IMG/VR virus record: IMGVR_UViG_3300023210_002753
Location: 1 to 64,000 of that record
Origin: a virus
Strand: one strand, 5' to 3'
DNA: 64,000 nucleotides
A model generated the notes under the pieces. It worked only from the letters and a program-made list of their open reading frames with translations. It did not search any database and was not told the DNA's origin. Positions 783-31,559 of the stretch are shown here, in pieces. The position numbers and the translations under genes are program-made. The first letter of the stretch is position 1; the number at the start of each line of letters is the position of its first letter.

Positions 783-1577
783 ATGTCGATAAGAACTACT
801 ATTAAAAAAATACTTTTAGAAAATAATAAACGTTATAATAAATTCGCTTATAACGTAATTAAATATGCGTATAATAATATTCGCATTAATCAGTACAGTG
901 GTAAAGAAGGTGAATTTAAATCTAAATTTGGGAGTGTTGATAATTGGATTAGAAATATTAAGTTGTATTTTTTTGAGCCGATGGAAAAACAAAAATCTAT
1001 GTATAGTTTAGATAAGGCTATTGATTATGGAAACAACCCACTCATTGACGGAATCAAACAAACAGATATAATAAAAATGTTATCAGAATTTATAGTGAAT
1101 TTTGAGGAGTCTGGTGAAAAAATAGAAGTGGACGTAATTAGTGGGTTTAATTTTGATGTATACTTGGAAAAAAATTATTTTAAGTGTACTAATGAATTTT
1201 TTGAATTTGTATGGGACGTTTATTTAAAAGATGCTAGAAATCATTGGAACGAGAGTCCAAAAGATAAGTATTGGGAAGAAATAAAAGATGGTGTCATCGA
1301 AAAAATGGAAGATGTGGAGTGGCAAGAGGAAAACGGTGTTTCATTTGATCAATTAAATAACGAAAAGGAATATTTTATGTCATATTGGCATTACCCAATG
1401 GACTCTTTGGGTTGGGATAGGGATGATTTATGTGAATTTTATAAAGATATGTTATCTGAAAGGGGAGATGAAAAATTAAGAAAAGTAATCGAGTATCACG
1501 ATAACCAATTTATAAATACAACTATAATAGACCATAACCTTTATTATGTAATTGACAGGGATAAGTTCCTATTTTAA
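783..1577 (+). CDS. Putative head-internal protein with capsid-targeting-like N-terminus
   Basis: 264 residues. I start at ATG 783 rather than an in-frame upstream codon at 732 because 783 follows the late promoter element and gives the N-terminus MSIRTTIKKILLE|N. That peptide ends in L-L-E (residues 11-13), the (L/I)-x-E signature cleaved by T4-type prohead proteases, and resembles the starts of other genes here. The body is rich in Trp, Tyr, Asp and Glu (for example WEEIKDGVIEKMEDVEWQEE) with no known domain that I can see. Inferred role: a protein packaged in the prohead and trimmed there. Its last 9 bases overlap the end of the convergent HNH gene. Confidence 0.75.
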   Translation: MSIRTTIKKILLENNKRYNKFAYNVIKYAYNNIRINQYSGKEGEFKSKFGSVDNWIRNIKLYFFEPMEKQKSMYSLDKAIDYGNNPLIDGIKQTDIIKMLSEFIVNFEESGEKIEVDVISGFNFDVYLEKNYFKCTNEFFEFVWDVYLKDARNHWNESPKDKYWEEIKDGVIEKMEDVEWQEENGVSFDQLNNEKEYFMSYWHYPMDSLGWDRDDLCEFYKDMLSERGDEKLRKVIEYHDNQFINTTIIDHNLYYVIDRDKFLF

Positions 1578-1991
1578 CCTTTTTATACGTCTTAATGCGT
1601 TTTTTGACTCATTTGTTACCTTACTACCCTTACTTAAGTTCTCCTCATAGGGTATAAACCTTAAATTTTTGATGTTTCCTACCTTTTCTGGTGGGATTTT
1701 CTCTTTAAAACCCATCGCAATAGGGTAAATGTGATCTAAATGATGGTTTTTCCATCCTCTTTTGTCAGAATTCTCCAATAAATAGAGTTTTTGTCCTTCT
1801 GTAACCTCCCAAACCATAGCATAATACAATTTCTTCTCTAAATCCTTAATTTTTTTGATTTTTTGTTTGATTTTAGGGTGTTTTTTGGTAATTTTACGTA
1901 TTTTATACCTATTTTTATCCCTTTTTCGTTGATTTAAGGGTGTTTTAGGGGTATTTTTACCTTTTTTAGTATTTTTGGGTGGAATATTCAT
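1569..1991 (-). CDS. HNH family endonuclease
   Basis: 140 residues. The first ~50 residues are extremely basic (Lys/Arg runs), a probable DNA- or RNA-binding tail. Residues ~83-125 carry an HNH core: H-H-L-D-H-I-Y-P, then N-I-K-N-L-R and later N-L-S-K-G-S, the spacing seen in stand-alone phage HNH nucleases. It runs opposite to the surrounding late genes and is divergent from the cell-wall hydrolase gene, with only 30 bases between the two starts. It could be a homing endonuclease or a packaging-associated nicking HNH protein; the sequence does not decide. Confidence 0.8.
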   Translation of the reverse strand: MNIPPKNTKKGKNTPKTPLNQRKRDKNRYKIRKITKKHPKIKQKIKKIKDLEKKLYYAMVWEVTEGQKLYLLENSDKRGWKNHHLDHIYPIAMGFKEKIPPEKVGNIKNLRFIPYEENLSKGSKVTNESKNALRRIKRLK

Positions 1992-2008
1992 ATATTTAAA
2001 TAAATAAC

Positions 2009-2021
2009 TATATTTATAAAT
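2009..2021 (+). promoter_or_regulatory. Late-type promoter element abutting the start codon
   Basis: TATATTTATAAAT lies directly before ATG 2022. If this is a -10 element, transcription would begin at or next to the start codon. The gene at 19952 has the same element at the same distance (five bases between ATATTTA and the ATG). Confidence 0.6.
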
Positions 2022-2861
2022 ATGAAGATAATAATTACCGAAAACCAGTTAAAAAAAATACTTTTAAATGAAAATCAATATACAAAAAGTAATGTAACTT
2101 TTAATGATATATGGTTTTGTAATAAAGTAGTTAAATGTGATGAAAATCAAGATAGGGATGATAGCCCACTTTATTTAGTACAACAAAGATTAATAGAAGA
2201 GTTAAATAAAAATCCGGAAACAAAAAAATGGGTGATAAAAAAGAACTTCACAGCAGATAAATCTTTTGGTCCAACTACCGCTAAGGCAATTGGGATGTAT
2301 TATACTAATGGTGAAAGTGAATTTGAGTGTCCAGTTAATATCGGACCAAAATTATTAAAAAAGTTAGGTTTTGAACCACCAGAAGAATTAACAGAAGATG
2401 AAAAAATATTGGCAGTTACATTAACTATGGAAATGTCTAGTTACAATGAAAATGAAATTAAAGCAATATCTAATGTAATTGCAAATAGATCATATATACG
2501 TAATAAATCTGTGGTAGATATAGTTAAATCTTGTAATAAGAAAAACATTTGTCAATTCTCTGGGTGGAATGATTATAAAGGTGAGGATGTCGACACTGTT
2601 ATATGTAAAGAAAGATCGTATGAGGATGATTCTTGGGAAACTGCGGTAAAGTATGCGAAGTTATTGTTGTCGGGTGCAAACTTTTCAGATAATACTAATG
2701 GTGCAACACATTATTATAACCCTAACAATCCAGACGTTAAAAAAAACCCACCTAATTGGGGTGAAGGATTTGATACTTGGGTACCACATATTAAATTAAT
2801 TCATTCATATGGTAGGGATACTACAACTAATTGGGCAAAAAATCCAGTTATAAGAAAATAA
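2022..2861 (+). CDS. SleB-type cell-wall hydrolase with capsid-targeting-like leader
   Basis: 279 residues, three parts. Residues 1-17 form a leader, MKIIITENQLKKILLNE, with two (L/I)-x-E sites (I-T-E at 5-7 and L-N-E at 15-17). Residues ~48-95 resemble a peptidoglycan-binding-1 repeat (VQQRLIEEL ... SFGPTTAKAI). Residues ~128-265 match the SleB/CwlJ hydrolase_2 family: E-x-x-A-I-S-N-V-I-A-N-R at 145-156, Q-F-S-G-W at 178-182, G-A-T-H-Y-Y-N-P at 227-234 and P-N-W near 245. The family cleaves peptidoglycan glycan strands. The leader suggests packing inside the head and release during infection rather than use in lysis; that is inference. No signal peptide. Confidence 0.85.
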   Translation: MKIIITENQLKKILLNENQYTKSNVTFNDIWFCNKVVKCDENQDRDDSPLYLVQQRLIEELNKNPETKKWVIKKNFTADKSFGPTTAKAIGMYYTNGESEFECPVNIGPKLLKKLGFEPPEELTEDEKILAVTLTMEMSSYNENEIKAISNVIANRSYIRNKSVVDIVKSCNKKNICQFSGWNDYKGEDVDTVICKERSYEDDSWETAVKYAKLLLSGANFSDNTNGATHYYNPNNPDVKKNPPNWGEGFDTWVPHIKLIHSYGRDTTTNWAKNPVIRK

Positions 2862-2865
2862 TAAA

Positions 2866-3123
2866 ATGGAAAGGGAATTAGATTACGCCTATAAGATATT
2901 CGTTTTTGAACAAATACACAATGCAACTGCAAGTGTAAAAAAAAGATGGATAATATACGATAGTATTTTAGGTGTCTTAAATGATATGAGGGAAATGGAA
3001 TTAATAGATGAAATAAAATATAGAATAACTGACAATGAAAATGATGTAAAAGTGTTCAAGTCTTCTCTAAAGAAGATAAAAAATAAAAATGATACTTTAA
3101 ATTTGTTAATTAATTCAATTTAG
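2866..3123 (+). CDS. Small hypothetical protein (85 aa)
   Basis: Starts 4 bases after the hydrolase stop and is probably co-transcribed with it. It is charged and helical-looking, with no membrane segment, cysteine pattern or recognised domain. No (L/I)-x-E leader is present, which separates it from its two neighbours. Confidence 0.65.
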   Translation: MERELDYAYKIFVFEQIHNATASVKKRWIIYDSILGVLNDMREMELIDEIKYRITDNENDVKVFKSSLKKIKNKNDTLNLLINSI

Positions 3124-3136
3124 TATATATTTATAA
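3124..3136 (+). promoter_or_regulatory. Late-type promoter element
   Basis: TATATATTTATAA starts one base after the preceding stop and lies 15 bases before ATG 3152; it is one of the closest matches to the recurring late element. Confidence 0.55.
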
Positions 3137-3151
3137 ATAAAAGTTAAGAGT

Positions 3152-4777
3152 ATGAAATATATAATTAGTGAAAACCAATATAAGATATTATTAAAAGAAG
3201 ATAGGGTTACATTTTTAAAGACAAATAATGTAATTACAAAAGATGACCTTAAAAAATACCTTAAAGGTGAAAAAGAAGTATCCCAAGATCACCCAGAAGG
3301 TGGGATGAAGAAAAGAATTAAGCTTGAACCTATTCAAGGTCATGATGGTATCGATATAGGTTATATCGTAACAAACAAAAAAGGTAAGGTGAGTATTAAA
3401 GTCACAGAGGAGGTTTTTGATAACATGGTTGACTCTGACCCAACAAATAATAAATCATTTGTCCAGTGGATGCTAGGGGTGTTTAGTCGACACCTTAAAG
3501 ATGGTGATACTGATCAAGCAGTTAGATTTTTATCTGAAGATTTACCTGAAGCTAATGAATATCTTGAAGTTTTTGAAAGGGTTAGAAAGAAAAAAGTATT
3601 TAAAACTGGTGCACCTAATAGACCTAACGCACCCGATAATGTTACCGACATAAATCAATATAAAGATTTGGCACATCTCTACTCCATTGTTAGCCCATTT
3701 ATCGGCGCTGATGAAGAAGATGAGGATGATGGAGTAAGCCCTATATGGAAAAAAATGAAAAAGTATATTGATCTTGGACATGCTAGGTTAGCGTATAGAG
3801 ATAATGACGTATTAGTTTATATTCCAGATACTATAGAATCTAGTTGTGACCCATTAGGTAATTTAGCTTCATGGTGTACGAGAAGAGAAGGGAATTCTTA
3901 TTTTAAATCTTACCGAGAAGGGAATAAAAAACCAGATGGTAGTAATTCAGATTTATATGTAGTTATACCTAAAGAAGTTTTTGAAGGTGATGACGTTGGT
4001 GGGAGGTTTCCATTACAATTCCATTTTGAAACTGGACAATTACATGATAAAAACAATTCATCTATAGAAAATGATTTTAATAATTTAATGAGTAATTATA
4101 GTGGGGCAAAGGAATTCTTTAAAAGAGAGTTAGGGGTATTAGCAACTGGAGATATTGAGCAAGGATCTGGATTAATGGATAGTAGGTATTTAAAGTACCT
4201 TAATAAGTTCGGTGGTAAAGCAAAAGATGTAATGACTGATGCTACATATAAAAAAGGTGTAGAATCTATTAGAAAATTAGCATCAGAACAAACAGGACAA
4301 CTTCAAAATAATAAGTATTTAAAGTGGTTAATGGAAAATACTGATGGTGTGCAAATAACGGATTATTTGGATCCTAGTGTGGAGGTATTAGATTTTAGTA
4401 ATATGGAATTAACAGAGCTTCCAGACATCTCGAACTTCGTCAAGGTAACTAGACTTTCAGCTAATCAGTGTGGGTTAGTTAAATTACCACCTGTTAATTA
4501 TTTACCTAAAAGTATTGAGGTTTTAACTATGACAGGAAATCAAATTAAAGAGGTTCCACTGAAAGATTATGGGACATTAACTAATTGTTTTGTAATGAAT
4601 TTTGGTGACAACCCAGTTACAAAAATAAATGTGGAGGTACTGGAGAAATTGGTTAGGGAGGCGTTAGCTAGATTTGTATTAGCAAGTGTTAACTTAGATA
4701 ATCTTTCACCTGAAAATCTTGCACAATATAGGAGGTTTGAGGAAGATCCCGATAGTATAGGATATTTAGTGGCGTAA
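3152..4777 (+). CDS. Leucine-rich-repeat protein with capsid-targeting-like leader
   Basis: 541 residues. The leader MKYIISENQYKILLKE parallels the hydrolase leader at 2022 (I-S-E at 5-7, L-K-E at 14-16). The middle holds a conserved-looking block with L-A-S-W-C-T-R-R-E-G at 238-247 followed by N-S-D-L-Y-V-V-I-P near 265-273; I recognise the pattern from phage proteins of unknown function but cannot name it. Residues ~410-495 form about four leucine-rich repeats (for example VLDFSNMELTELPDISN). LRRs usually bind proteins. An LRR protein injected from the head, or part of the particle, would be an unusual effector; that role is inferred only from the leader. Confidence 0.8.
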   Translation: MKYIISENQYKILLKEDRVTFLKTNNVITKDDLKKYLKGEKEVSQDHPEGGMKKRIKLEPIQGHDGIDIGYIVTNKKGKVSIKVTEEVFDNMVDSDPTNNKSFVQWMLGVFSRHLKDGDTDQAVRFLSEDLPEANEYLEVFERVRKKKVFKTGAPNRPNAPDNVTDINQYKDLAHLYSIVSPFIGADEEDEDDGVSPIWKKMKKYIDLGHARLAYRDNDVLVYIPDTIESSCDPLGNLASWCTRREGNSYFKSYREGNKKPDGSNSDLYVVIPKEVFEGDDVGGRFPLQFHFETGQLHDKNNSSIENDFNNLMSNYSGAKEFFKRELGVLATGDIEQGSGLMDSRYLKYLNKFGGKAKDVMTDATYKKGVESIRKLASEQTGQLQNNKYLKWLMENTDGVQITDYLDPSVEVLDFSNMELTELPDISNFVKVTRLSANQCGLVKLPPVNYLPKSIEVLTMTGNQIKEVPLKDYGTLTNCFVMNFGDNPVTKINVEVLEKLVREALARFVLASVNLDNLSPENLAQYRRFEEDPDSIGYLVA

Positions 4778-4801
4778 ATAAAATTTTTTTATTAATAACA
4801 C

Positions 4802-4814
4802 TATATTTATAATA
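4802..4814 (+). promoter_or_regulatory. Late-type promoter element
   Basis: TATATTTATAATA, 34 bases before the ATG at 4849, in the gap after the LRR gene. Confidence 0.5.
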
Positions 4815-4848
4815 TAAAATAACATACTTTATAAAAAACATTAATAAT

Positions 4849-5013
4849 ATGTCAAAAAGAAAGAAAAAAGTGGTTAGGTTAACAGAAACAGAAATGGTTA
4901 GCTTAATTGAAAACATCGTTAACGAAGTAAAAAGAGAAAAGAAAAGAGAAATTACAGAATCTAGAAATAGAAAACCTGTAAGTAGAAAACCAGTATCTAG
5001 AAGAAGAAGATAA
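4849..5013 (+). CDS. Basic 54-residue peptide with protease-site leader
   Basis: A short gene with a late promoter element upstream. The product opens with a lysine/arginine tract, then LTETEMVSLIENIVNEV, reaches I-T-E at residues 35-37, and ends in a 17-residue tail SRNRKPVSRKPVSRRRR containing no acidic residue. If a T4-type prohead protease cut after the I-T-E, it would free that Arg-rich tail inside the capsid, where it could neutralise DNA. T4 also makes small internal peptides by such cleavage (established for T4); assignment here is inferred. A 109-codon frame on the other strand covers the same bases but lacks these signals. Confidence 0.65.
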   Translation: MSKRKKKVVRLTETEMVSLIENIVNEVKREKKREITESRNRKPVSRKPVSRRRR

Positions 5014-5032
5014 TCCAAAGTTAAAAAAACGT

Positions 5033-6415
5033 ATGTCTAAAAATTTATCAGAAGAAAGAATTAGGATGAGAAAACTTATGGGGTTTACCTATGAGGATAA
5101 TTCTCATGATGTATTGGCGGAACAGAATATTGGTAAATCTATAATTTCTGAACAGGGGGAAAAAGAAGAAGTTGGAGGAGAAGATTGTGTCACTATTAGT
5201 CATGTAGGGAGATTCCCAGTGGATGGTATTGCAGGGTCCGGTGCATTTACAACGTTTATGGATAAAATAGAGACCACTATTAAAGGTAATGCTAAATTAG
5301 CGGATAAAATTACAAAAGGTTTTGTATATGTAACAGATTTTAGTCTTATTGGTGGCGCAAGTAATCATTATGAGGGTCATTCTGTGACACCTGAAAAAAA
5401 TAATGACCGTAAAAGTGATTATAGTGGACAAGATTATACTGAAGATAATAAGTCATCTCACTTTAAGAAAAATAAAGAATTATCAGTAAATCGAGCTAAA
5501 GGTTTGGCAGATGAATTAAACGGGGAGGATGGATTAAAACGTATTAATGTTCAATTCGATGAGGGTATTTTAGATAATGCTAAAAATAACGCACAAGGAT
5601 ATATTATAGATACAGGGGGAATTAATGATAAACCTAATAAATCAAGCTGGACAATTAATGGTGTAACATACCAACCCGGTCAAGTAGTTGAAGTTAGTAT
5701 GACTATTTGTTACCAATCAGAAAAACAGGAGGAAAATCCTGAAACAGGAACCACAGAAACGGTAATAACCAAAGAACAGGTAACAGTACTAAAAAAGTGT
5801 TTTAATGGTGCCACAATTAAAGTAATTTATGACCCAAAAGATCTGAAGAAAAGAGGGCTTCCAGACCATAGTTGTAATAAAGCAGTTTATGATATATGGG
5901 CAAATGGTTATAAGATAAAAAGAACACCAACGTTAGATTACGCTAGTTTAAATAATAAAGGGTATTTAGATGATGCTGAGAAAGAAGGGCGGAAAAGGAT
6001 AAATACGTTTACTTTAGAGATAGATGGGGTAAATAGTGAGTTCTTTAATGAGGATATTATAGGTAAACATAGTGGAAGATTAGTGATTACGGCAGCATGT
6101 AGGAAGACAAAAGCAGGGAAATGGAGATCAAAAACGTGGAAGTTAAATGGAAAGAAAATGGATCCAAGTGACTGTCATTATGGCGTAGGGAAAATAATAG
6201 TAGATACCGCTGAAGGAACCGACTCTAAAGTAGTGGTAACACCTAGTATGTGGGGAGTAGAGAAAAATGTTGCAGAATTTCCAGCTTGTGAAAATATAAT
6301 TACTGAGTTAATGACTGATAAACCTAAAGTTATAGAAAAAATAAAAACTTGGTGGAAAAAAATAAATAGTAAATCGGATAAGGAAGAAACAAAAAAAGAA
6401 GTAACAAGATTCTAA
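5033..6415 (+). CDS. Putative virion/internal protein, possible degenerate OmpA-like part
   Basis: 460 residues. The N-terminus has several (L/I)-x-E sites: L-S-E at 5-7, L-A-E at 28-30 and I-S-E at 38-40. The segment R-I-R-M-R-K-L-M-G-F is amphipathic. Residues ~110-185 weakly recall an OmpA C-terminal domain (NKELSVNRAKGLADEL followed by a possible binding loop), but the motif is imperfect. Two or three beta-rich, cysteine-containing segments follow, then a very basic C-terminus. The gene lies 19 bases after the basic peptide gene and ends in a 4-base convergent overlap with the secreted-protein gene. Function is not established. Confidence 0.7.
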   Translation: MSKNLSEERIRMRKLMGFTYEDNSHDVLAEQNIGKSIISEQGEKEEVGGEDCVTISHVGRFPVDGIAGSGAFTTFMDKIETTIKGNAKLADKITKGFVYVTDFSLIGGASNHYEGHSVTPEKNNDRKSDYSGQDYTEDNKSSHFKKNKELSVNRAKGLADELNGEDGLKRINVQFDEGILDNAKNNAQGYIIDTGGINDKPNKSSWTINGVTYQPGQVVEVSMTICYQSEKQEENPETGTTETVITKEQVTVLKKCFNGATIKVIYDPKDLKKRGLPDHSCNKAVYDIWANGYKIKRTPTLDYASLNNKGYLDDAEKEGRKRINTFTLEIDGVNSEFFNEDIIGKHSGRLVITAACRKTKAGKWRSKTWKLNGKKMDPSDCHYGVGKIIVDTAEGTDSKVVVTPSMWGVEKNVAEFPACENIITELMTDKPKVIEKIKTWWKKINSKSDKEETKKEVTRF

Positions 6416-12535: not shown

Positions 12536-13327
12536 ATGCGAATTAAAAGATTAAAAGAACAAGAGGTAAGTGATATAATCGCCAAAGAAAATATTGACTT
12601 ATCATCCTTTAAAGTAAAAAAAACATTAAACCCAAAAGTATTCGACAAGGATAAAAAAATGCATAGTGATGTTCGATCTAGGTTACTGATGATTGCTGAT
12701 GATTTTTTTGAAACTTTGGATATCGGTTGGGTTGATCTGGATGATGTTATATTAACTGGTAGTTTAGCTAATTATAATTGGTCAAAATTTTCAGATGTTG
12801 ATCTACATATATTACTACAATTTGAAGATGTGGATGAAAATGTGGATTTGGTTAGGGAATATTTTAACTCAAAAAAGAATTTATGGAATGAAAAACATTC
12901 TATTACCATAAAAGGTTATGATGTGGAATTATATTTACAAGATACTCATGAATCACATGTTTCTAGTGGTGTGTATTCTGTAATGTGGGATGGATGGGTT
13001 GTTAAACCAGAAAGAGGTGATAAGAAAATAGATGCGAAAAAAGTAAGTGAAAAAGTTAATAGTATTGTTGATGCAATTAAACATGTTTATGAGATGTATA
13101 AAGATGGGGAGTATGATAAAGTAATTAGAAGTATAAAAACACTTAAAGAGAAATTAAAGAAAATGCGACAAGCCGGATTGGATCGTGAAGGTGAATATTC
13201 TTTTGAGAATATTGCATTTAAAGTTCTTAGAAGAAGTGAGTATCTAGATAAATTAACTACAATAGAAACTAGGGCGTATGATAATTCATTAACATTGGAT
13301 GAATCTATAAAGCTTATAAAGTATTAA
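12536..13327 (+). CDS. Nucleotidyltransferase-fold protein with protease-site leader
   Basis: 263 residues. Residues 74-90 hold the polymerase-beta-type nucleotidyltransferase signature: T-G-S-L-A-N-Y ... F-S-D-V-D-L-H, with a candidate third carboxylate in G-Y-D-V-E-L at 128-132. Such enzymes add NMP to proteins, RNA or small molecules. The start MRIKRLKEQEVSDIIAKE has L-K-E at 6-8, and the gene sits behind a late promoter element, so it may be loaded in the head like the T4 ADP-ribosyltransferase Alt (a known injected enzyme). Target unknown; the C-terminal helical half is Lys-rich. Confidence 0.8.
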   Translation: MRIKRLKEQEVSDIIAKENIDLSSFKVKKTLNPKVFDKDKKMHSDVRSRLLMIADDFFETLDIGWVDLDDVILTGSLANYNWSKFSDVDLHILLQFEDVDENVDLVREYFNSKKNLWNEKHSITIKGYDVELYLQDTHESHVSSGVYSVMWDGWVVKPERGDKKIDAKKVSEKVNSIVDAIKHVYEMYKDGEYDKVIRSIKTLKEKLKKMRQAGLDREGEYSFENIAFKVLRRSEYLDKLTTIETRAYDNSLTLDESIKLIKY

Positions 13328-16557: not shown

Positions 16558-17280
16558 ATGAAAAAAAAGGATATTATAAAAAGTTTAATATCTGAAAAGT
16601 TTGCATCCAAAGCACAACAAGCTTATCTTTATGCAAATGAGCCCGATATTGCAGATGAATTTGCTTCTACAATGACCGATGAAGATTACGATGAATTACC
16701 CCAAAAAGTTAAGAAAAAAAAGAAAGGGAGTAAAAAATCTAAAAAAGAATCCATCAATCCCAGAATGAAAAAAAATGATTTACTGGAATATATAAAAAAT
16801 TCATCAGTTAAAAAAAAAAGTAAGATAGTTGAGTCTCGGTATGATTTTCCTTACCTAAGAGAGGTAGACCCACAAGAACGAAGGGATATAATGAAATACT
16901 TTGAGATGATCCGACAAAGTGGGATTGTTAATATGTTTCAATCACCCCCAATACTTAATTGGGCAAAAGACGATCTACATAGATTTTTATATGGAGAAAG
17001 AAATGATCCAGAATCTATTGAGAGGAGTATTGAGGAAGAAGAATATGATAATGAAGATGGGGAAAATGATACTACTATCTCCATATTAAAGGAAAGGTTA
17101 GTAACTATAAACTATTTATTAGATAATAAACAAAAGATTAGAGATATATTAATCCGAGCTGCATTTAACAGAATAGATAATACCAATGGTAACCATGAAA
17201 TGAGAAATGTACAACATATATTCGAAAAGATGGCTAAAGAATCTTGGCAGTTTTGGGTTGGTATACAAAGTATAAAATAA
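16558..17280 (+). CDS. Putative head-internal protein (240 aa)
   Basis: Leader MKKKDIIKSLISE|K with I-S-E at 11-13; then a Lys-rich stretch at ~50-66 (KVKKKKKGSKKSKKE) and a helical, acidic second half with a W/F-rich end (ESWQFWVGIQ). One base separates it from the gene before. No recognised domain; grouped with its neighbours because of the leader and operon position. Confidence 0.7.
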   Translation: MKKKDIIKSLISEKFASKAQQAYLYANEPDIADEFASTMTDEDYDELPQKVKKKKKGSKKSKKESINPRMKKNDLLEYIKNSSVKKKSKIVESRYDFPYLREVDPQERRDIMKYFEMIRQSGIVNMFQSPPILNWAKDDLHRFLYGERNDPESIERSIEEEEYDNEDGENDTTISILKERLVTINYLLDNKQKIRDILIRAAFNRIDNTNGNHEMRNVQHIFEKMAKESWQFWVGIQSIK

Positions 17281-18818: not shown

Positions 18819-19940
18819 GTGAAATTAACATTTAAAAATATAATTACAGAAGATATTAGGAAATCCCCTAAACTAGAGAATGCCATTTTTAAATTTCTTA
18901 AAAGGAAGGACGTTTGGCGAGGGAGAACAGAAGACGAAGATAAAAGTAGTTTGCAAGCTTCTGATGATGTAGAAAAAACATTTGGTTTGGATGAATGGGA
19001 TGCTAAGTTTTTTACATTTAAATGGTTAGTTAATAATGGTTACGACACTCTAGATAGTGATGGTGAGATTGATTATTGGGTTAAAAGTACTGATGACAAA
19101 TATCAATTTTTAAAAGATACTGGATGGTGGGGTAAATTTTATAAACCATATAAATTTATAGATGTAGTAGAGAAGGGTGAAGGTAATCAAAAATTTATCC
19201 TTGTAGATTCTTATTATGAATTTAAACCATTATTTGATAATGAATGGATAAGTGATGCAATTTTTGGTGGCGATTATGTTGAGATATTTGGGTGGTATAA
19301 CTACCCGCTAGAAGAAATGTGGGATAGCCTTGATGATAAAGGGTTACAATCTATAATAGAAGTTCTCCCTTCATATACATCCGAAGATGATTTATTTCAT
19401 AACGCCCCTGAATCGTTTTTAGATGTAGTTGACCCAGATACCGGTAGTATCCCAATGGATAGAAGAACAATAAATTTTATTAAAGATGGGGATACCTCTT
19501 CATTACTTTATGATTTGATTAATGAGTTAGATGAATTTGATGAATTAAAAAGTGATATGGTAAATCTTTATAATGTAGCATATAATGATGCTGCACATTC
19601 AGAATTATTCAAGGGTGCAATGTCAGAGTTGGAAAGTTTTTTCGGGGGCAACCCAAAATGGGTGCAGGTTCCGGGTCCAGATAAAAATAATGAGTTAAAT
19701 ATGTTAGAAATCCCCATCAAACAAGAAGATTATGACAATTTATATAAAGAATGGTTGGACACCTTTTCAGATTTCCCAGAACATTCTTATTCAGAGTATA
19801 TAGAATCGTGGGGAGAGGTATTAAGAGAAAGTGGGGATGAGCTGAGATTTCCTGACTTACAATATTTTTATCCAGACCATAATATAGTGAATGATTATTT
19901 TAATGATTCATTACGAGATAATTTATATGGTGGTAACTAA
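18819..19940 (+). CDS. Putative head-internal protein with GTG start (373 aa)
   Basis: GTG start chosen because it directly yields the leader MKLTFKNIITE|D (I-T-E at 9-11) shared in kind with neighbouring genes; no ATG lies nearby in frame. The body is acidic and rich in Asp, Trp, Phe and Tyr (WWGKFYKPYKFIDVVEKGEG) with no named domain. Eleven bases separate it from the next leader-bearing gene, which has its own promoter element. A soluble packaged protein is inferred. Confidence 0.7.
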   Translation: MKLTFKNIITEDIRKSPKLENAIFKFLKRKDVWRGRTEDEDKSSLQASDDVEKTFGLDEWDAKFFTFKWLVNNGYDTLDSDGEIDYWVKSTDDKYQFLKDTGWWGKFYKPYKFIDVVEKGEGNQKFILVDSYYEFKPLFDNEWISDAIFGGDYVEIFGWYNYPLEEMWDSLDDKGLQSIIEVLPSYTSEDDLFHNAPESFLDVVDPDTGSIPMDRRTINFIKDGDTSSLLYDLINELDEFDELKSDMVNLYNVAYNDAAHSELFKGAMSELESFFGGNPKWVQVPGPDKNNELNMLEIPIKQEDYDNLYKEWLDTFSDFPEHSYSEYIESWGEVLRESGDELRFPDLQYFYPDHNIVNDYFNDSLRDNLYGGN

Positions 19941-19951: not shown

Positions 19952-20797
19952 ATGAAGATTATAATAACAGAGTCACAACATAGGAGAATAGTAAAGGAAG
20001 AAACCAAACAGATGGAATTGGCCAATAAAGTAAAACAAGGGTTGTCAAGTGCAGACCTAAAAACAACTATGTATGAAATCACTACCTTATATTCATATAG
20101 TGAAGAAGAAATTATTAATAATTCAGTGTTAATGGAGTTAGTTAAAGAGAAAATGTTAAAAGAAATAAAGGATAATTACTATATATCTAAAGATTTAAGA
20201 GATAAGTATGGAAACTATTTTGGTTTGGTTGGGCAAAGCGCAGCTAAAGAAATCGTTCAAGGTGGGTCAAACCCTTATTCTAAGTTTTTGCAATTAGATG
20301 CGGTTTTAAAAACTATACCCCGTGGTTATTCTATAACAGAATCAAGTATAGAGATAGTAAAAGAAATGAGAGATGGGTTAACTTATGATGCGATACAATA
20401 TCTTTTTGATAACTTTGAAGTCGCTGGTGCAATTAAAAGGGCATCAATTATGAAAGATAGGTCGGGTAATTATGATGAAATATACCCCTACGTTAAAGAA
20501 TGGGCGATTAAACATGGTATAACCTTATTTGAGAAACATAGGGGATTAACATTTATAAAGAAAGATGGTATGATGCAGTCTTTGGTTAACTACCTAAAGG
20601 ATGTTAACCCCAAAACGAAGTCGGGATTTTTGGATTATATTAACTCCAGGGGGAGATCAACAGGTCAACATGCGTATTTTTGGAAAGCAGCCCAAGAATC
20701 TGGAATTATTACCCCTGTTAGAAATGGTAGACAGATTACCTATCAGTTAGGTCCCAATTATGAAGCTTGGAAAAACGATAATTTAGTTGCATTTTAA
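19952..20797 (+). CDS. Leader-bearing protein with possible C-terminal winged helix
   Basis: 281 residues. Leader MKIIITESQHRRIVKEE matches the cell-wall hydrolase leader at 2022 over the first seven residues although the codons differ, so conservation is at protein level. I-T-E lies at 5-7. The C-terminal ~65 residues (GFLDYINSRGRSTGQHAYFW, then ITPVRNGRQITYQLGP) read like a winged-helix DNA-binding fold with a beta-hairpin wing. A packaged DNA-binding protein is possible. It directly precedes the terminase gene, but its late leader argues against it being the small terminase. Confidence 0.7.
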   Translation: MKIIITESQHRRIVKEETKQMELANKVKQGLSSADLKTTMYEITTLYSYSEEEIINNSVLMELVKEKMLKEIKDNYYISKDLRDKYGNYFGLVGQSAAKEIVQGGSNPYSKFLQLDAVLKTIPRGYSITESSIEIVKEMRDGLTYDAIQYLFDNFEVAGAIKRASIMKDRSGNYDEIYPYVKEWAIKHGITLFEKHRGLTFIKKDGMMQSLVNYLKDVNPKTKSGFLDYINSRGRSTGQHAYFWKAAQESGIITPVRNGRQITYQLGPNYEAWKNDNLVAF

Positions 20798-24667: not shown

Positions 24668-25441
24668 ATGAATAACTTTGGAAAAATAAAAGATACCTTT
24701 AACTTAATTCTAACAGAATCTATCATTAAAAAAGATAGTGAAGGTAAAAAATTATTTATTAGTTACTTGAAAGAACTAAAAGAAAACAAATCATTAAAAT
24801 CACAATTTTTACTATATAAGAATTTAAGTGATAAAAAATTTATTAATGAGTCTGATGCCAAATACTATATTAAAGAAAATATCGAACTATTAAAAAAATT
24901 AGATAAAAAAGAAATTAATAGTGGGTCAAAAAAATTAGTATCTTTATTAGAGGGTAAAGAATTAGTTAAAGAAAATATAGAATTATATAACCATATTAAT
25001 GTATTAGTAGAAACTAAAAAAACAGCTTCCTCTATAGATAAAATTCAAGAGTCAATTAATTTCATCACAAGAAAGATGATGGAAGTAGATGAAGAAGAAG
25101 TTGAACAATATGAATCTCTAAATTTACCACCTAGTGTATTAACTAAATTGGCAATTAATAGATTTAATTTAAAATATTCAGATATTACAGAAAGTGAAAA
25201 AAAAATAATCAAATCAGTTTTAAACGGCACAGATGAAAACAAAGAAGATGTGTACGTAAACCTTAAAAAAGAATGTATTGATTTAATCGATAGTAAATTA
25301 AATGAAAATACTGATTTGGATATGAAAGATAAGTTACTCAGAGTAAAAGACAAACTATTGAGTATGGCTTATAATCCAGATGAATATGTTGGTGACATCG
25401 ATAAGGTTTACCAACTTAAACAATCAGTGGCCACTGATTAG
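24668..25441 (+). CDS. Probable prohead core protein
   Basis: 257 residues, highly charged and helical (Lys+Glu rich), with leader MNNFGKIKDTFNLILTE|S containing L-T-E at 15-17. Further (L/I)-x-E sites occur in the body (L-K-E, L-L-E, I-T-E, L-N-E), as expected for a core protein degraded by the prohead protease. It lies between portal and protease genes, where T4 has core genes 67 and 68. Homology to those cannot be shown by eye, so the role rests on position and composition. Confidence 0.7.
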   Translation: MNNFGKIKDTFNLILTESIIKKDSEGKKLFISYLKELKENKSLKSQFLLYKNLSDKKFINESDAKYYIKENIELLKKLDKKEINSGSKKLVSLLEGKELVKENIELYNHINVLVETKKTASSIDKIQESINFITRKMMEVDEEEVEQYESLNLPPSVLTKLAINRFNLKYSDITESEKKIIKSVLNGTDENKEDVYVNLKKECIDLIDSKLNENTDLDMKDKLLRVKDKLLSMAYNPDEYVGDIDKVYQLKQSVATD

Positions 25442-26735: not shown

Positions 26736-27428
26736 ATGTTAGAAATATTAAAGAGTAATGAAGTAAATAAAAAAGGTATTCTTGTAGAATACGATTCAGG
26801 ATACATCTCTCCAAAAGATAATAAACATTTTATTAATGAGGTAAATAAATTAACCAAGGGTGGAACAATAGTTGAAACTCCTTTGGTTGTTTATGCTGTA
26901 ATGCAGAAATATGGTGTTGAGAATAAGAACGAAAGGATATACCCTGAAAATATTTTAAGAAGAGAAGCAGAAAACTACCTTAAACTAATTAACGAAAGAA
27001 GAGCAATGGGTGAGGCAGATCACCCGGAGAGTTCAATAGTATCGATAAGTAGGATTTCACATAATGTCACAGAATTATGGTGGGAGGGAAATGTCCTAAT
27101 GGGGAAATTAGAAATTATAATGTCACCAGGATTTGTCAACCAAGGGATTATTTCTTGTGAAGGAGATTTAGTTGCTAATTTACTACGTAATAATTTAAAG
27201 ATGGGTGTATCTTCTAGAGGTGTAGGTTCCCTGGAGAAGGAGCATGGTAAAAATATAGTTCAAGATGACTTTGAATTAATATGTTGGGATGTGGTAACAT
27301 CACCGTCAACTCCCGGTTCTTGGATATATAATAGAGAACCAAGTAAGGAAGAACAAATGGCAGAATCTAAAGATAATTCTGATAAGAATTTACTTATTGG
27401 TTCTTTAGATGATTTTTTATGTGACTAA
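26736..27428 (+). CDS. Prohead core protease (T4 gp21-like serine protease)
   Basis: 230 residues (T4 gp21 is 212). The herpes/T4-type prohead protease pattern is present: N-x-R-I-Y-P near 65-70, catalytic His96 in G-E-A-D-H-P-E, and catalytic Ser in G-V-S-S-R-G-V-G at 157-164, with W-D-V-V-T-S-P-S after it. The T4 enzyme cuts scaffold, capsid and internal proteins after (L/I)-x-E and then destroys itself. This protein is the expected processor of the leader sites noted across the window. It lies directly upstream of scaffold and capsid genes, as in T4. Confidence 0.93.
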   Translation: MLEILKSNEVNKKGILVEYDSGYISPKDNKHFINEVNKLTKGGTIVETPLVVYAVMQKYGVENKNERIYPENILRREAENYLKLINERRAMGEADHPESSIVSISRISHNVTELWWEGNVLMGKLEIIMSPGFVNQGIISCEGDLVANLLRNNLKMGVSSRGVGSLEKEHGKNIVQDDFELICWDVVTSPSTPGSWIYNREPSKEEQMAESKDNSDKNLLIGSLDDFLCD

Positions 27429-27460
27429 AATACCACAAAAATCATACTTTTCTAATTTTC

Positions 27461-27473
27461 TATATATTTATTA
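27461..27473 (+). promoter_or_regulatory. Late-type promoter element for scaffold and capsid genes
   Basis: TATATATTTATTA, 66 bases before the scaffold ATG. No other element is seen before the capsid gene, so the two genes are probably transcribed together from here. Confidence 0.55.
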
Positions 27474-27539
27474 AAAAACATGGTACATTAGTGCCAAAAT
27501 AAAATATTCTAATAATATAAAATAAACAAAAAGAATTAA

Positions 27540-28868
27540 ATGGCTACAAAAAGAAAATCAATCATCGAAGAGGCTTTGCTAGAAGCTAAGTCTTTAGAGG
27601 ATGCCTTAAAAGCCAATACGAAAGAAATACTTGCCACTCATATGAAGCAAGAAATTGAGAGTATCGTAGAGTCGTCTCTGAAAGAAGAAGACGAAGAATT
27701 TGAAATCGATATAGAAGGGTCCGATGAAAATGAGGATGGAATGTCAGTTGACGATGTTGTAACTGGAGATGATTCTGAAGAACTAATTAATTTAGATGCA
27801 TTTACTGCAGATGAAGAAGGTGACGCAGAATTGGAATTAGATCTTGATCTTGATTTACCTGATGACGGTGAAGAGTCAGATATTGATGTTTTGGAATTAC
27901 CTATGGATTTATTAGGTGGTGATGAAATAGATTTAACTGGTGCACCCGATGATGAAGTACTTAAAGTTTTCAAAGCAATGAGCGATGATGACGAAGTAGA
28001 AGTAATCAAAGATGAATGTGGAATTCACTTAACAGATAACGAAACAGGTGCTGAGTATTACATTAAGGAAAGTATGGAAGAACTGGATGGAATGGCAGAA
28101 GGTTGTGATGACTCTTTGGAAGAAGGTTGTGAAGAATTGGAAGAAGAAACCATTTATGAAATAGAAATGGATGATCAAGGATACGATGATAAAGAAGATG
28201 AATCTTTAGGTATGAGGACCGGTAAGGAACTTGAAGAAGAAGAATCATATTCAGATCGTAGAGAAGATTCTTACGGAAAATGGGGGGATCGTGACGATGA
28301 ATCTTTGGAAGAAGATCATACACTTGCTAGGACTAAAGGATACCAAAGAAAAGGTGGACATAGAAATAGGCAAGAAGAATCTCGTAAACCACGTAAACCA
28401 ATCTCTGAAAGGAGAAATTCACGTAAACCAATCTCTGAAAGGAGAAAAACACCTAAGAATGTAAGCAAAGTAGCTGACTCTAAAATAATGAAAGAATACA
28501 AAGAACTTAAGAGTAAAAATGAAGAATACAAAGGAGCTCTTAACGTATTCAAAGATAAACTTAATGAAGTTGCTTTATTCAATACAAATTTAGCATACGT
28601 AAATAGATTGTTTACTGAACACTCTACCACTAAAAAAGAAAAAATGAGCATCTTAAAGAGGTTCGATGAAGCTGATAGTGTTAAAGGTTCTAAATCTATT
28701 TATAAAACTATTAAATCAGAATTGGATCGTAAATCACCAATTACTGAATCAGTAGAGAAGAAAGTAAACAGAACTGTTAAGTCATCGGCTTCAGATTTAA
28801 ACGAATCTACAGCATATGTAGATCCACAAATCGTAGCGATTAAAGATTTAATGAAAAGGATATCATAA
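27540..28868 (+). CDS. Prohead scaffold protein (T4 gp22-like)
   Basis: 442 residues, extremely acidic in the first 250 (Asp/Glu runs), then basic and helical. Start contains I-E-E and L-L-E (residues 9-15). Many internal (L/I)-x-E sites are present, including a duplicated R-K-P-I-S-E-R-R (285-302) and D-L-N-E-S-T-A near the C-terminus. T4 gp22 is the core scaffold, cut to small peptides during maturation. Position between protease and major capsid genes supports this. Sequence homology to gp22 is not obvious, as is common for scaffolds. Confidence 0.85.
   Translation: MATKRKSIIEEALLEAKSLEDALKANTKEILATHMKQEIESIVESSLKEEDEEFEIDIEGSDENEDGMSVDDVVTGDDSEELINLDAFTADEEGDAELELDLDLDLPDDGEESDIDVLELPMDLLGGDEIDLTGAPDDEVLKVFKAMSDDDEVEVIKDECGIHLTDNETGAEYYIKESMEELDGMAEGCDDSLEEGCEELEEETIYEIEMDDQGYDDKEDESLGMRTGKELEEEESYSDRREDSYGKWGDRDDESLEEDHTLARTKGYQRKGGHRNRQEESRKPRKPISERRNSRKPISERRKTPKNVSKVADSKIMKEYKELKSKNEEYKGALNVFKDKLNEVALFNTNLAYVNRLFTEHSTTKKEKMSILKRFDEADSVKGSKSIYKTIKSELDRKSPITESVEKKVNRTVKSSASDLNESTAYVDPQIVAIKDLMKRIS
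28390..28447 (+). repeat. 28-bp direct repeat inside the scaffold gene
   Basis: Two perfect 28-base copies at 28390-28417 and 28420-28447, offset by 30 bases (ten codons); each encodes RKPISERR and so a candidate protease site. Confidence 0.9.
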
Positions 28869-28900
28869 TAATAATAATATAAATTAAAACTCAAAAAAAA

Positions 28901-30652
28901 ATGGGACATTTATTAAACTCAGGTGAAGTCGGAAATATCGGACTTGAACACTTGAAACAAATAAGATCTAAAACTATTTCGAAGTGGAACAAAATTGGTT
29001 TCCTAGAAGGTTTAAAAGGTCACGTAAGAGAGAACATTGCTCAGTTATATGAAAACCAAGCATCGGCTCTTTTAAACGAATCTACGAGTTCAAACTCATC
29101 AGGTTCATTCGAAACAGTTGTTTTTCCAATTGTAAGGAGAGTATTCTCTAAATTATTGGCTAATGACATCGTTTCAGTACAAGCTATGAATATGCCGATT
29201 GGTAAATTATTCTTCTTTGTACCGAAAACAACTGGTAGGAATCATGCAGCCTTAAACGGACCAGCATTGTCAAATCAGGAATGTGTATTTTCAGCTTGTG
29301 GTGGTAACACACTATCAGTATTTCAAGAAAAGAATCTTTATGATATCTTTTATAATGATGGATTATTTGATGCGTCTAAAGGACAATCAACACTATTTTC
29401 GGATGGTGGAATTGATCCAGTTATCTTAAGTGCAAACGGAGAATCCGTTTCAACAATATTTGCTGATCAACCTTTAGCGGCTGATGGTAGTATGAGAAAT
29501 TTAACTTTCTGTATTACTGGATTTACTGGTACAGGTGCTGGTAGAATGGTTGGTGCAGATGGTAATGAAATGGATACTGAGGCTTTCTTAGCTTCATTAC
29601 ACATAGTAAATGGTTCTGACCCAATTATGGCTGGTGACGGTAGTGGTAATGTAGTTATTGCAGCCAATGCTAACGTACCATTTAGATTAGTAGCACAAAA
29701 ATATGGAAAAGGTATTGTCGATTACGGTGATATTTGTACTCCAGCAGGTTGTTTACTAGTTGAAGTGGATCTTACAACACCAGCTTGTGTTAGTTGTAGT
29801 GCTAATACCTTCGATGGTTACATTGGTGGTAGTGACGCAACAACATCAGCGGCAACATTCAGTGTAAACTGGATGACATATGCATCTTTAGAATATGCAA
29901 CTGAAATGGGTGAGGTATCATTCGAACTTGATGAAGTTGTTGTTTCTGTAACAGAGAGAAAGTTGAGAGCAACTTGGTCTCCTGAACTAGCACAAGATGT
30001 TAGTGCATTCCATAACATTGATGCTGAAGCTGAATTAACGGCTTTATTATCTGAACAAGTAGCAGCTGAAATCGACAGAGAGATTCTTAGAGATTTAAGA
30101 GTAGGTGCAGCTTGGCAATTGAGATGGGATTACAATGGTTGGAAACGAACTGCTAGTGGTGGTTTCAACGCTTACACTCAAAAAGAGTGGAATCAAACGT
30201 TGATTACTAAAATTAATCAGTTATCAGCTCAAATTCATAAATCAACTCTAAGGGGTGGTGCTAACTTCGTAGTAGTATCTTCTGAGATATCAGCTATTTT
30301 TGATGACTTAGAATACTTCCACGTATCAAATGCGGCTCCAGAGCAAGATCAATACAACATGGGTATTGAGAAAGTAGGTTCATTAGGAGGACGTTACACA
30401 GTGTATCGTGACCCTTACGCACCAGCTAACTCAATAATTGTTGGACATAAAGGAAAATCGTTATTGGATACTGGGTACATTTATGCACCTTACGTACCAT
30501 TACAATTGACTCCAACGTTACAAAACCCATTCAACTTCGCACCAACGAAGGGGATAATGACAAGATACGCTAAGAAAATGGTTAATAACCGTTTCTACGG
30601 AGCGTTGACTGTTGATGGTGTTGTTACATTTGACATCAATGAGTTGAGATAG
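28901..30652 (+). CDS. Major capsid protein (T4 gp23-like)
   Basis: 583 residues (T4 gp23 is 521). N-terminus parallels gp23: W-N-K-I-G-F-L-E-G, then I-A-Q-L-Y-E-N-Q, and a predicted propeptide cleavage after L-N-E at 58-60 followed by S-T-S. The next segment V-V-F-P-I-V-R-R-V-F ... D-I-V-S-V-Q-A-M-N-M-P-I-G-K matches the gp23 region after its cleavage site. The C-terminal part includes G-R-Y-T-V-Y-R-D-P-Y. HK97-fold shell protein. Codons here look more balanced than in accessory genes, as expected for a highly expressed protein. Followed by a strong terminator. Confidence 0.95.
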   Translation: MGHLLNSGEVGNIGLEHLKQIRSKTISKWNKIGFLEGLKGHVRENIAQLYENQASALLNESTSSNSSGSFETVVFPIVRRVFSKLLANDIVSVQAMNMPIGKLFFFVPKTTGRNHAALNGPALSNQECVFSACGGNTLSVFQEKNLYDIFYNDGLFDASKGQSTLFSDGGIDPVILSANGESVSTIFADQPLAADGSMRNLTFCITGFTGTGAGRMVGADGNEMDTEAFLASLHIVNGSDPIMAGDGSGNVVIAANANVPFRLVAQKYGKGIVDYGDICTPAGCLLVEVDLTTPACVSCSANTFDGYIGGSDATTSAATFSVNWMTYASLEYATEMGEVSFELDEVVVSVTERKLRATWSPELAQDVSAFHNIDAEAELTALLSEQVAAEIDREILRDLRVGAAWQLRWDYNGWKRTASGGFNAYTQKEWNQTLITKINQLSAQIHKSTLRGGANFVVVSSEISAIFDDLEYFHVSNAAPEQDQYNMGIEKVGSLGGRYTVYRDPYAPANSIIVGHKGKSLLDTGYIYAPYVPLQLTPTLQNPFNFAPTKGIMTRYAKKMVNNRFYGALTVDGVVTFDINELR

Positions 30653-30677
30653 TCTTAGTTAGATTATAAGTAACTTT

Positions 30678-30710
30678 AAAAGGGGTGGATTTATTTCTAC
30701 CCCTTTTTTT
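30678..30710 (+). terminator. Rho-independent terminator after the capsid gene
   Basis: AAAAGGGGT and ACCCCTTTT form a 9-bp stem with a 12-base loop and a T run; 25 bases after the stop. Confidence 0.88.
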
Positions 30711-30719
30711 GTTTTATAA

Positions 30720-30730
30720 GATATTTATTA
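30720..30730 (+). promoter_or_regulatory. Late-type promoter element
   Basis: GATATTTATTA immediately after the capsid terminator, 16 bases before ATG 30747. Confidence 0.55.
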
Positions 30731-30746
30731 TTAAATTAGAACCAAT

Positions 30747-31559
30747 ATGAGGATTAAGAAAAAAGATGTGTTATTAGAAGCTCAATTAATAGATACTACT
30801 TCCGAATTTACCCCACAAGAAAAAAGATTGTTAAAAACATTAAAAAAGAAGTTTGGTAAGGGGGGTTATGACTCTGATTATGACAGATTTGTTGGTGCAG
30901 CATTTTTAATTGAGGACATGGGGATTCCTTATGATCAAGCATATGACTTATCTTTAACTCATTGGTGGCATGGAGATAAATTATATCAAGAAGTTGATCC
31001 AATCTATAAAAAAGAAGATAGAGGGTGGCTTTATAGAAAATTAATACATCAGCTATTATCACCATATATAGAAGGTAGGGGTGAAACAATTGGCGATGCC
31101 ACCATAACATGGGAAGATCCTAACCATATAATTTCACAAAAAGATTTATTTACTGTTAAAGAAAGTGTTACATTATGGTCCGGAACTTTGGGGTTTACTT
31201 TATACATCCCTTTTAGGGGGAATATTTTGGGGATACCATCAAGTGACGTGATTCACGGCGTGAGGCACCGTTACGATATCTCAGATAAAAATACTCTGAT
31301 GGTGTATATTAAATTTATACCATACGATGAAAAAGGTCACCCTAAAATGGGTACACATGTTAAGTTTGATGTAAAATATGTTGTTGGGGATTCCACGATG
31401 AGGCATGAAAATAATAATGAAAAAAATATGATGAGTTTTGATATTCCTATTCCCTCCCCATTAGATAAAGATAATATGTATAAAATTTTTACTGACTCTT
31501 TAAAGGATGTATTGGAGAAAATAGAAAGTATGACTTTTACTTTAAACCCACCTGAATAA
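30747..31559 (+). CDS. Putative head-internal protein with leader (270 aa)
   Basis: Leader MRIKKKDVLLE|A with L-L-E at 9-11, similar in layout to T4 internal protein leaders. The rest is soluble: a helical segment (SEFTPQEKRLLKTLKKKFGK), a W-W-H motif, then a beta-rich half. No family recognised. Own late promoter element. Ends 5 bases before the convergent tail gene cluster, marking the end of the rightward late region. Confidence 0.72.
   Translation: MRIKKKDVLLEAQLIDTTSEFTPQEKRLLKTLKKKFGKGGYDSDYDRFVGAAFLIEDMGIPYDQAYDLSLTHWWHGDKLYQEVDPIYKKEDRGWLYRKLIHQLLSPYIEGRGETIGDATITWEDPNHIISQKDLFTVKESVTLWSGTLGFTLYIPFRGNILGIPSSDVIHGVRHRYDISDKNTLMVYIKFIPYDEKGHPKMGTHVKFDVKYVVGDSTMRHENNNEKNMMSFDIPIPSPLDKDNMYKIFTDSLKDVLEKIESMTFTLNPPE

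Follow-up and report, generated by a model that had tools for sequence, protein, structure and literature searches.

In bacteriophage T4, the prohead protease gp21 removes N-terminal peptides from Alt and from the internal proteins (IPs), and IPIII needs no more than its ten N-terminal residues to enter the head (PMC9958956, PMC9026906, PMC3012670, PMC12373910). The IPs of T-even phages are described as diverse, with only their capsid-targeting sequence (CTS) conserved, and at least 10 IPs are reported from related phages (PMC3012670, PMC9026906, PMC12373910). In phages of the SPN3US/phiKZ type, a related protease trims N-terminal propeptides of proteins that are copackaged with the DNA, and the first 15 residues of two paralogues are identical, but the cleavage motif is A-x-E (PMC5694885). 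Nine substrates have been found there by mass spectrometry, mostly with long propeptides (PMC10052503), and the available portions of these two papers describe no large unrelated set of proteins under one shared leader. Here, we describe short N-terminal leaders ending in (L/I)-x-E that precede unrelated proteins in the IMG/VR virus record IMGVR_UViG_3300023210_002753 and its relatives. Bases 1–64000 of this 64,433-base record were analyzed, and this stretch is called the window below.

PHROG and Pfam profile searches identified a T4-like head module in the window, consisting of a terminase, a portal, a gp21-type protease, and the capsid protein gp23. A sequence-only reading had previously pointed to 14 genes whose products begin with such leaders, and had proposed that they form a head-internal or injected set much larger than that of T4. 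Each of the 14 genes, named here by its first base, could be read from its proposed start in a check of open reading frames (ORFs); for 783 and 13740 longer ORFs from TTG or GTG also exist, and their starts are assumed. We consider it likely that these leaders represent T4-like capsid targeting at a larger scale, by unrelated leader sequences and with a cargo that includes extracytoplasmic function (ECF) sigma factors; we infer from sequence that the proteins would be packaged, cleaved, and injected.

Part of the basis for this interpretation is the recurrence of the same leaders on proteins that are otherwise dissimilar. Genes were called with a simple in-house caller, and body families were defined as single-linkage BLAST groups, which may split distant relatives. 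When 12-residue N-terminal windows were compared between proteins without BLAST similarity in their bodies (taken from residue 31), 64 cross-family leader pairs were found in seven sequences, compared with 1, 5, and 5 in internal controls, and 530 in eleven genomes, compared with 4 in the control. The claim that the leaders sit on unrelated bodies was thus borne out as modular sharing. Cluster A (MKI.(I/L)(T/S)E.Q and K.IRLTESDL) contained 66 proteins of 54 families, cluster D (MK.LIRKILKEE) 30 proteins of 24, cluster E (ITEEEK.RILGMH) 9 proteins of 9, cluster B2 (MNLQEQISRI.SMMGL) 8 proteins of 7, and cluster B1 5 proteins of 3. A leader type of Flavobacterium phage immuto, MENFDLKKFLVEN.LT.NS (MENFDLKKFLVE-type), was shared by 4 proteins of 4 families with dissimilar bodies. 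Among clusters of at least three families, 119 of 125 proteins carried [LIV].E at residues 5–30. Some small clusters were ordinary, comprising P-loop, thioredoxin, and GIY-YIG-like N-termini and one secretory signal. At the threshold used, 4 of the 72 window proteins joined any leader cluster, making the window itself a modest member of the phenomenon.

Two leader types, A1 and A2, were captured in strict matrices, which match the window genes 2022, 3152, 4849, and 19952. In type A2, an (L/I/V)-x-E follows RLTE by position 26 in 123 of 124 proteins, with its glutamate at position 16 in 96, and past this second motif no consensus is seen, the top residue at any later position reaching at most 43 of 124. 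Type A1 has its second site at residues 9–24 in 210 of 263 proteins, compared with 21% in internal windows. When 80 proteins were aligned, each from a different body family, the consensus was MKIxLTESQLxxxxxxxxxIxE, followed by four scattered conserved residues. The identical peptide RLTESDL occurs in 108 proteins and is encoded by 75 DNA versions, suggesting that selection acts mainly on the peptide. Codon entropy falls below the body level for S and for R, which is written AGA in 99 of 108, but stays near it for L, T, E, and D; since these last codons vary much as they do in bodies, conservation of the DNA itself, such as selection on translation starts, was rejected as the main cause. The same codon variety upholds an earlier argument for protein-level selection, drawn from the MKIIITE common to the leaders of 2022 and 19952, in which the non-Met codons differ at 4 of 6 positions.

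Three patterns, two of type A1 and one of A2, matched at least 120 IMG/VR stretches each, compared with 4 for the first A1 pattern scrambled with the same codons. Among the matches listed were 387 distinct full-length proteins with A1 or A2 leaders, in 184 body families. A profile search over related phages, as had been suggested, yielded 27 strict leader proteins in the 304-kb genome G046 and 19 in G016; the matrices were trained without loci L429 and L160, and close relatives of these two genomes stayed in the training set. The terminase, portal, protease, and capsid protein of G046 match those of the window at E below 1e-67. With a broader, hand-made pattern, 44 of 325 N-termini were matched in G046 versus 0 of 286 internal windows, and 30 of 244 versus 2 of 208 in G016. 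The strict leaders of G046 are clustered, 25 falling among the 156 genes before 116 kb and 2 among the 169 after it (P=6.5e-7, for a border chosen after looking), and the early and tail homologues found in this genome all lie past 150 kb. A tblastn search for the type A2 leader in annotated phages, insensitive for so short a query, returned one weak match, to an uncultured record of 484 kb (E=4).

Like the CTS of IPI–III and Alt, these leaders are short N-terminal peptides that end in (L/I)-x-E and occur on unrelated proteins, and as in T4, a gp21-type protease is encoded and the capsid protein carries the same kind of site. Unlike the T4 CTS (MKTYQEFIAE), they come in several types within one genome, and the strict matrices match 0 of 194 T4 proteins; minor leaders such as MKFFRLEK..LLFE in G005 appear nearer to it, by eye only. 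The numbers differ as well, with 27 to 44 leader proteins in the 304-kb relative versus the three IPs and Alt of T4. As the main leaders are unlike the T4 CTS and packaging is predicted only, we did not class the system as a T4-type member; relative to T4, its scale, the several label types per genome, and the diversity of the cargo would be new. Immuto, the nearest annotated phage by terminase (NC_055915), has a similar T4-like head module and its own leader family, but its terminase is 27% identical and it lacks strict A1/A2 leaders. A single further example comes from cyanophage S-SM1, in which the cytidylyltransferase gp190 begins MKKFSAFLNE↓ (among 41 hand-picked S-SM1 proteins); one study reports its cluster, T4-GC190, from purified virions (PMC3037559). 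The literature searched contained no report of these leaders or of so large a leader-tagged set, which is weak evidence of absence, as preprints and most subscription journals lay outside the search.

The protease encoded in the window, previously proposed to be gp21-like, belongs to Peptidase_S77 (Table 1), and its H96, S159/S160, and D185 are invariant with gp21 of T4, S-SM1, and immuto. All 10 long relatives picked by terminase encode Peptidase_S77. At the L-N-E↓S-T-S that had been noticed at the expected processing position of the capsid protein, the LNE is kept in 21 of 21 orthologues, as is LYE at residue 51, and the site in 13740, which has the same L-N-E↓S-T-S, is equally constant. In T4, used as a control, [LI].E with its glutamate at residues 6–25 was present in gp21 and all of its substrates examined, namely IPI, IPII, IPIII, Alt, gp67, gp68, gp21, gp22, gp23, and gp24 (10 of 10), against a background of 58 of 194 proteins. 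Among leader-bearing contigs of at least 100 kb, 23 of 36 contain PF03420. None of the other 13 yielded gp23, which the same search found in 5 of 5 relatives, or a window-like portal, found in 3 of 3 positive controls; phrog_2 gave two weak hits, so that the head module and not the protease alone is missing from these contigs. Two of them, G016 and G039, were inspected; G046 has counterparts for 146 of 244 proteins in the first and 72 of 275 in the second. Both of these contigs contain tail genes and no head core, with one weak capsid-profile hit in G016 (E=0.0028).

Orthologues of the window genes were aligned from 80 loci kept of the 187 related ones found, plus long relatives; they are distinct but related, and the retention counts are therefore not independent. 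The leader site was kept in most or all orthologues of 13740, 16038, 17291, 18819, 19952, and 30747, and less strictly in those of 24668, 12536, and 16558 (Table 1), whereas [LI].E sites in the bodies showed mean retentions of 0.06 to 0.65, or 1.00 for the single one in 30747. Second N-terminal sites vary, LKE at 39 in 24668 being kept in 35 of 36 and INE at 10 in 17291 in only 6 of 33. The loci searched held no orthologues of 783, 2022, and 5033, and too few of 3152 and 4849 for counting; the leaders of 783 and 5033 are hence proposed from resemblance. In 17291, LRE, LNE, LTE, INE, VSE, or LLE stands directly before the conserved body at the end of a leader of variable length. Of 210 pooled sites with glutamate at P1, 206 had L, I, or V at P3, and 147 had S, A, or N at P1′. 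The leaders can also be exchanged on the same body: 18819 has a type A1-like leader in L059 and L060, 16038 a type A2 leader in L057, and 12536 a different leader in G005 and G006.

Pfam was scanned with 80 of the 156 family representatives that were 110 aa or longer and with 60 of 73 pattern-picked proteins of G046 and G016, a few proteins being in both sets. Matches were few among these 140 leader proteins, covering 21 families in the set of 80 and 4 in the set of 60. The domains include cell-wall hydrolases, peptidoglycan-binding domains, LysM, lysozyme, an ECF sigma factor, a Cas4-like domain, and the esterase-like UPF0227. The sigma factor, encoded in L203 (2093–3100), matches TIGR02937 (E=8e-27) and SigE in the PDB (E=2e-11), and has three relatives, in L234, L230, and L464; each carries a type A1 leader followed by (L/I/V)-x-E. 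Ahead of its sigma domain, L203 has a hydrophobic segment as well as another leader-like peptide inside the protein, MKLNESKLYKILTED. L159, L145, and L370 resemble ADP-ribosyltransferases, the class of T4 Alt, by eye alone; for L159 this assignment was left unconfirmed by a single-sequence model (predicted local distance difference test [pLDDT] 33) and a PDB sequence search (best E=0.096). The GIY-YIG-like L213, the ParB-like L222, and the metalloprotease-like L192, likewise named by eye only, gave no NCBIfam hit. The leader-bearing family 89 (G001_73425) was considered as a tape measure and set aside, as PHROGs weakly favors G001_82119 instead (E=1.9e-4).

The leader genes resemble head and tail genes in appearing late. 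In eight sequences, the strict leader was found on 0 of 48 early, metabolic, and tail homologues versus 78 of 1260 others (P=0.049), and plain [LI].E on 9 of 48 versus 534 of 1260 (P=0.0006). The motif TATTTATW lies within 70 bases upstream of 39 of 78 strict-leader genes, 19 of 35 head-core genes, 16 of 21 tail genes, 5 of 27 early genes, and 251 of 1144 other genes (leader versus rest, P=2.7e-7; leader versus early, P=0.006); in opposite-strand orientation it precedes 14 of 78 leader genes and 133 of the 1230 remaining ones. It was picked after an excess of certain 8-mers had been seen upstream of the leader genes of four of these genomes, and the leader figure is thus partly circular; the head, tail, and early classes played no part in the choice. 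Within the window, TATTTATW precedes 9 of 14 leader genes, the terminase, the portal, and the protease (e.g., upstream of 20840, 22690, 24668, and 26736), and 3 of 40 leftward genes. TATTTATW is a possible late promoter. The T4 late promoter, TATAAATA, is unlike it.

Taken as capsid-targeting labels, the leaders would bind the prohead core during head assembly. The gp21-like protease would then cut after (L/I/V)-x-E and the label would leave, with the cleaved body staying with the DNA in the head. Cargo bodies, including hydrolases, the nucleotidyltransferase, sigma factors, and many unknowns, would be injected to act on the host, and a smaller conserved subset (13740, 17291, 24668, and 27540) would more likely be core or scaffold than cargo.

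Several observations weigh against this interpretation. Strict A1/A2 leaders are absent from T4 (150 of 169 kb), S-SM1, and immuto, though one T4 protein joins the loose cluster A; the broader pattern matched 0, 1, and 4 proteins in these phages, respectively. For early genes alone, the deficit of strict leaders is not significant (0 of 27, P=0.18), and that of the plain motif stems from tail genes (1 of 21, P=0.0002) and not from early ones (8 of 27, P=0.13). TATTTATW is missing upstream of the window's scaffold and capsid genes, and the literature searched yielded no virion proteomics for this clade. In G001 and G002, type A1 and B1 leaders occur on three families that adjoin tail sheath and tube. 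Finally, the A2 pattern matched 22 stretches of bacterial genomes, of which 13 lie in records whose titles name Prevotella, Prevotellaceae, or Segatella, and a type A2 variant was judged real in 17 of the 22. Of eight such genomes checked, six of the Prevotella group had one or two copies each and no PF03420; the other two do have PF03420, on the leader's own contig in a Prochlorococcus single-cell genome and on a different contig in a Bacteroidales bin. By eye, the neighbors of the leader gene of Segatella baroniae, the only complete genome viewed, are not phage-like in the 8 kb inspected.

The bacterial variant, MNKKLIRLTESDLHRIVKESV.RVL.E, is found on short proteins, mostly in Prevotella-group genomes or bins (L505–L525; e.g., L517:1104–1367). 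In G001, leader-type genes are interleaved with tail sheath and tube genes at 71464–77355.

The leaders could instead be docking helices for another late structure, such as the tail lumen, the baseplate, or a host target, with (L/I/V)-x-E an uncleaved part of the helix. Leaders adjoin tail genes in G001 and G002, TATTTATW precedes tail genes at least as often as head genes, and residues 7–17 of 19952 are predicted as a helix with low confidence. We nevertheless regard this as unlikely, since type A2 shows no consensus past the terminal (L/I/V)-x-E, the same kind of site is retained in the capsid protein, and none of 21 tail homologues carries a strict leader.

Alternatively, all or nearly all leader proteins might be prohead-core components that gp21 digests, with little or nothing reaching the host. 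For some of them, this is indeed what we favor: 13740, 17291, and 24668 are probably core parts digested by gp21 rather than cargo, the first two being acidic (net −102 and −49) and conserved like core proteins, as is 27540 [acidic as well], and 24668 lying between portal and protease, where T4 has gp67 and gp68. Better candidates for cargo are 2022, 3152, 4849, 12536, 18819, and 19952. Extended to the whole set, the proposal becomes quite improbable. The bodies include sigma factors, cell-wall hydrolases, lysozyme, and esterase-like and Cas4-like domains, and it would be surprising for one phage to have dozens of unrelated core parts. Moreover, 15 of 17 window proteins tested show no excess of [LI].E in their bodies at P<0.1; the scaffold-like 27540 has 16, where 10.1 are expected (P=0.021). 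Of the large head-internal or injected set first envisaged, the size relative to T4 stood in close relatives (27–44 leader proteins in G046), and the assignment of all 14 window genes to cargo is doubted.

The (L/I)-x-E excess in the head half of the window is more than chance, and the phenomenon as a whole is larger than first noted. Among rightward genes before 31.6 kb, 16 of 29 have [LI].E with its glutamate at residues 6–25, versus 7.0 expected from residue shuffles (standard deviation 2.3, P=0.0005) and 8.3 from internal windows of their own proteins (P=0.002), whereas leftward genes are at chance (11 of 40 versus 9.5, P=0.35). Chance alone puts one [LI].E near the start of about a quarter of genes, so a lone (L/I)-x-E is not diagnostic, and single genes, e.g., 783 or 5033, could be accidental. 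In the window, five relatives, and immuto, [LI].E density is 0.019–0.030 at residues 5–25, compared with 0.011–0.018 at residues 46–120. The control motifs [LI].D and [VF].E show no N-terminal rise in these seven sequences; [LI].K and [KR].E are raised 1.05- to 1.7-fold and 1.04- to 1.45-fold, as expected of basic N-termini. That the whole set is a compositional accident of AT-rich genomes, whose N-termini favor K, I, L, and E, is hardly credible: the chance rate and the raised [LI].K and [KR].E speak for it, but the values from shuffled residues, internal windows, control motifs, and pattern scrambling all lie far under the observed ones and rule it out for the set, and the sites are retained in orthologues.

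The features of the window are listed in Table 1. The hydrolase match of 2022 is barely over the Pfam cut-off, and 3152 shows a weak leucine-rich repeat similarity below it. The leader of 5033 is shared with G002_14779, whose body has no BLAST similarity to that of 5033. A PDB search with the 12536 product returned nothing useful, and 28% of the residues of 13740 are acidic. In orthologues of 19952, E7 and E16 are nearly invariant, the next nearly invariant residue being 47. Its predicted fold has a pLDDT of 86.8 overall and about 62 in the leader, and matched no PDB or viral structure at E<=0.001 (top PDB row BamD, E 0.07, template modeling score 0.36); a C-terminal winged-helix-like piece of the model aligns with ArsR-type repressors (probability 0.99, 71 columns, E 0.7), which is suggestive only. 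The first gene is truncated at the contig end and would probably add a fifteenth to the leader genes, with its own leader probably off the contig, as GGYDSQDI upstream of its ATG resembles the residues after the leader in the homologue L350 (36% identity).

Table 1. Leader genes and head genes of the window; arrows mark putative cleavage sites, and retention is given as orthologues keeping the site.
Feature	Leader or site	Gene	Strand	Remarks
First gene, cut by contig end		1..519	+	In-frame GGYDSQDI before ATG at 25
Leader MSIRTTIKKILLE↓ of 264-aa protein	783..821	783–1577	+	MK.LIRKILKE type by eye; TATTTATW upstream
Leader MKIIITE↓NQLKKILLNE↓ (type A1), cell-wall-hydrolase-like (Hydrolase_2)	2022..2072	2022–2861	+	Strict matrix; TATTTATW upstream
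Leader MKYIISE↓NQYKILLKE↓ (type A1), 541-aa protein	3152..3199	3152–4777	+	Strict matrix; TATTTATW upstream
Leader ..VVRLTE↓TEMVSLIENIVNE↓ (type A2), 54-aa basic protein, net +13	4849..4926	4849–5013	+	Strict matrix; TATTTATW upstream
Leader MSKNLSEERIRMRKLMGFTYEDNSHDVLAE↓ (type B), 460-aa protein	5033..5125	5033–6415	+	No TATTTATW upstream
Leader MRIKRLKE↓, nucleotidyltransferase-like	12536..12559	12536–13327	+	Pfam matches below cut-off; site kept 7/10
31-residue N-terminus ending LNE↓STS, strongly acidic protein	13740..13832	13740–15635	+	Site kept 21/21
Leader ending LME↓, 172-aa protein	16038..16103	16038–16556	+	Site kept 16/16
Leader MKKKDIIKSLISE↓, 240-aa protein	16558..16596	16558–17280	+	Site kept 9/14
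Leader ending LRE↓A, 470-aa protein	17291..17356	17291–18703	+	Site kept 34/35
Leader VKLTFKNIITE↓, 373-aa protein	18819..18851	18819–19940	+	Site kept 28/32
Leader MKIIITE↓SQHRRIVKE↓ (type A1), 281-aa protein adjoining terminase	19952..19999	19952–20797	+	ITE at 7 kept 30/33; strict matrix
Terminase large subunit		20840–22636	+	phrog_2; no leader seen
Portal		22690–24627	+	phrog_213; no leader seen
Leader ending ILTE↓, 257-aa protein between portal and protease	24668..24718	24668–25441	+	Site kept 23/36 counting L/I only (most others V)
gp21-type prohead protease (Peptidase_S77)		26736..27428	+	PF03420 E=1.1e-23; phrog_207
Scaffold-like acidic protein, expected gp21 substrate		27540..28868	+	Position as T4 gene 22; no PHROG
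Major capsid protein (MCP) gp23	Expected cleavage LNE↓STS, residue 60 (DNA to 29080)	28901..30652	+	phrog_138
Leader MRIKKKDVLLE↓, 270-aa protein after MCP	30747..30779	30747–31559	+	Site kept 13/13

The leftward half of the window encodes PhoH, sugar-nucleotide epimerases, glycosyltransferases, and a dUTPase, with a long glycosyltransferase and epimerase run at 41673–63449 (− strand) that includes methyltransferase and asparagine-synthase-like genes by eye. At 7094–9571 (− strand), a phage-encoded ClpB/ClpA-type AAA+ protein scores under the NCBIfam cut-offs. Gene 11967–12371 encodes a small secreted-looking protein with a type 9 secretion system (T9SS) type B sorting domain (TIGR04131, E=4.2e-18), which is odd for a phage and points to a Bacteroidota host. 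In conflict with this sign, a relative of the window (L017, L514; QCKH01000009.1, 63985 b) sits in a Prochlorococcus single-cell genome.

More tentatively, and with less than even confidence, one may picture virions that each carry dozens of proteins by interchangeable labels, in which packaged ECF sigma factors would redirect host transcription at DNA entry, before phage genes are read, and the label genes of the Prevotella group could be bacterial, exploiting the label to enter heads. If capsid targeting by these leaders is true, a sequence label alone would predict injected effectors among the uncharacterized genes of large uncultured phages, and well over a hundred anonymous families would become testable candidates for host takeover or counter-defense. 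The leaders would also provide new capsid-loading tags beyond those of T4, and the protein payload of a virion would be far richer than in the textbook case.

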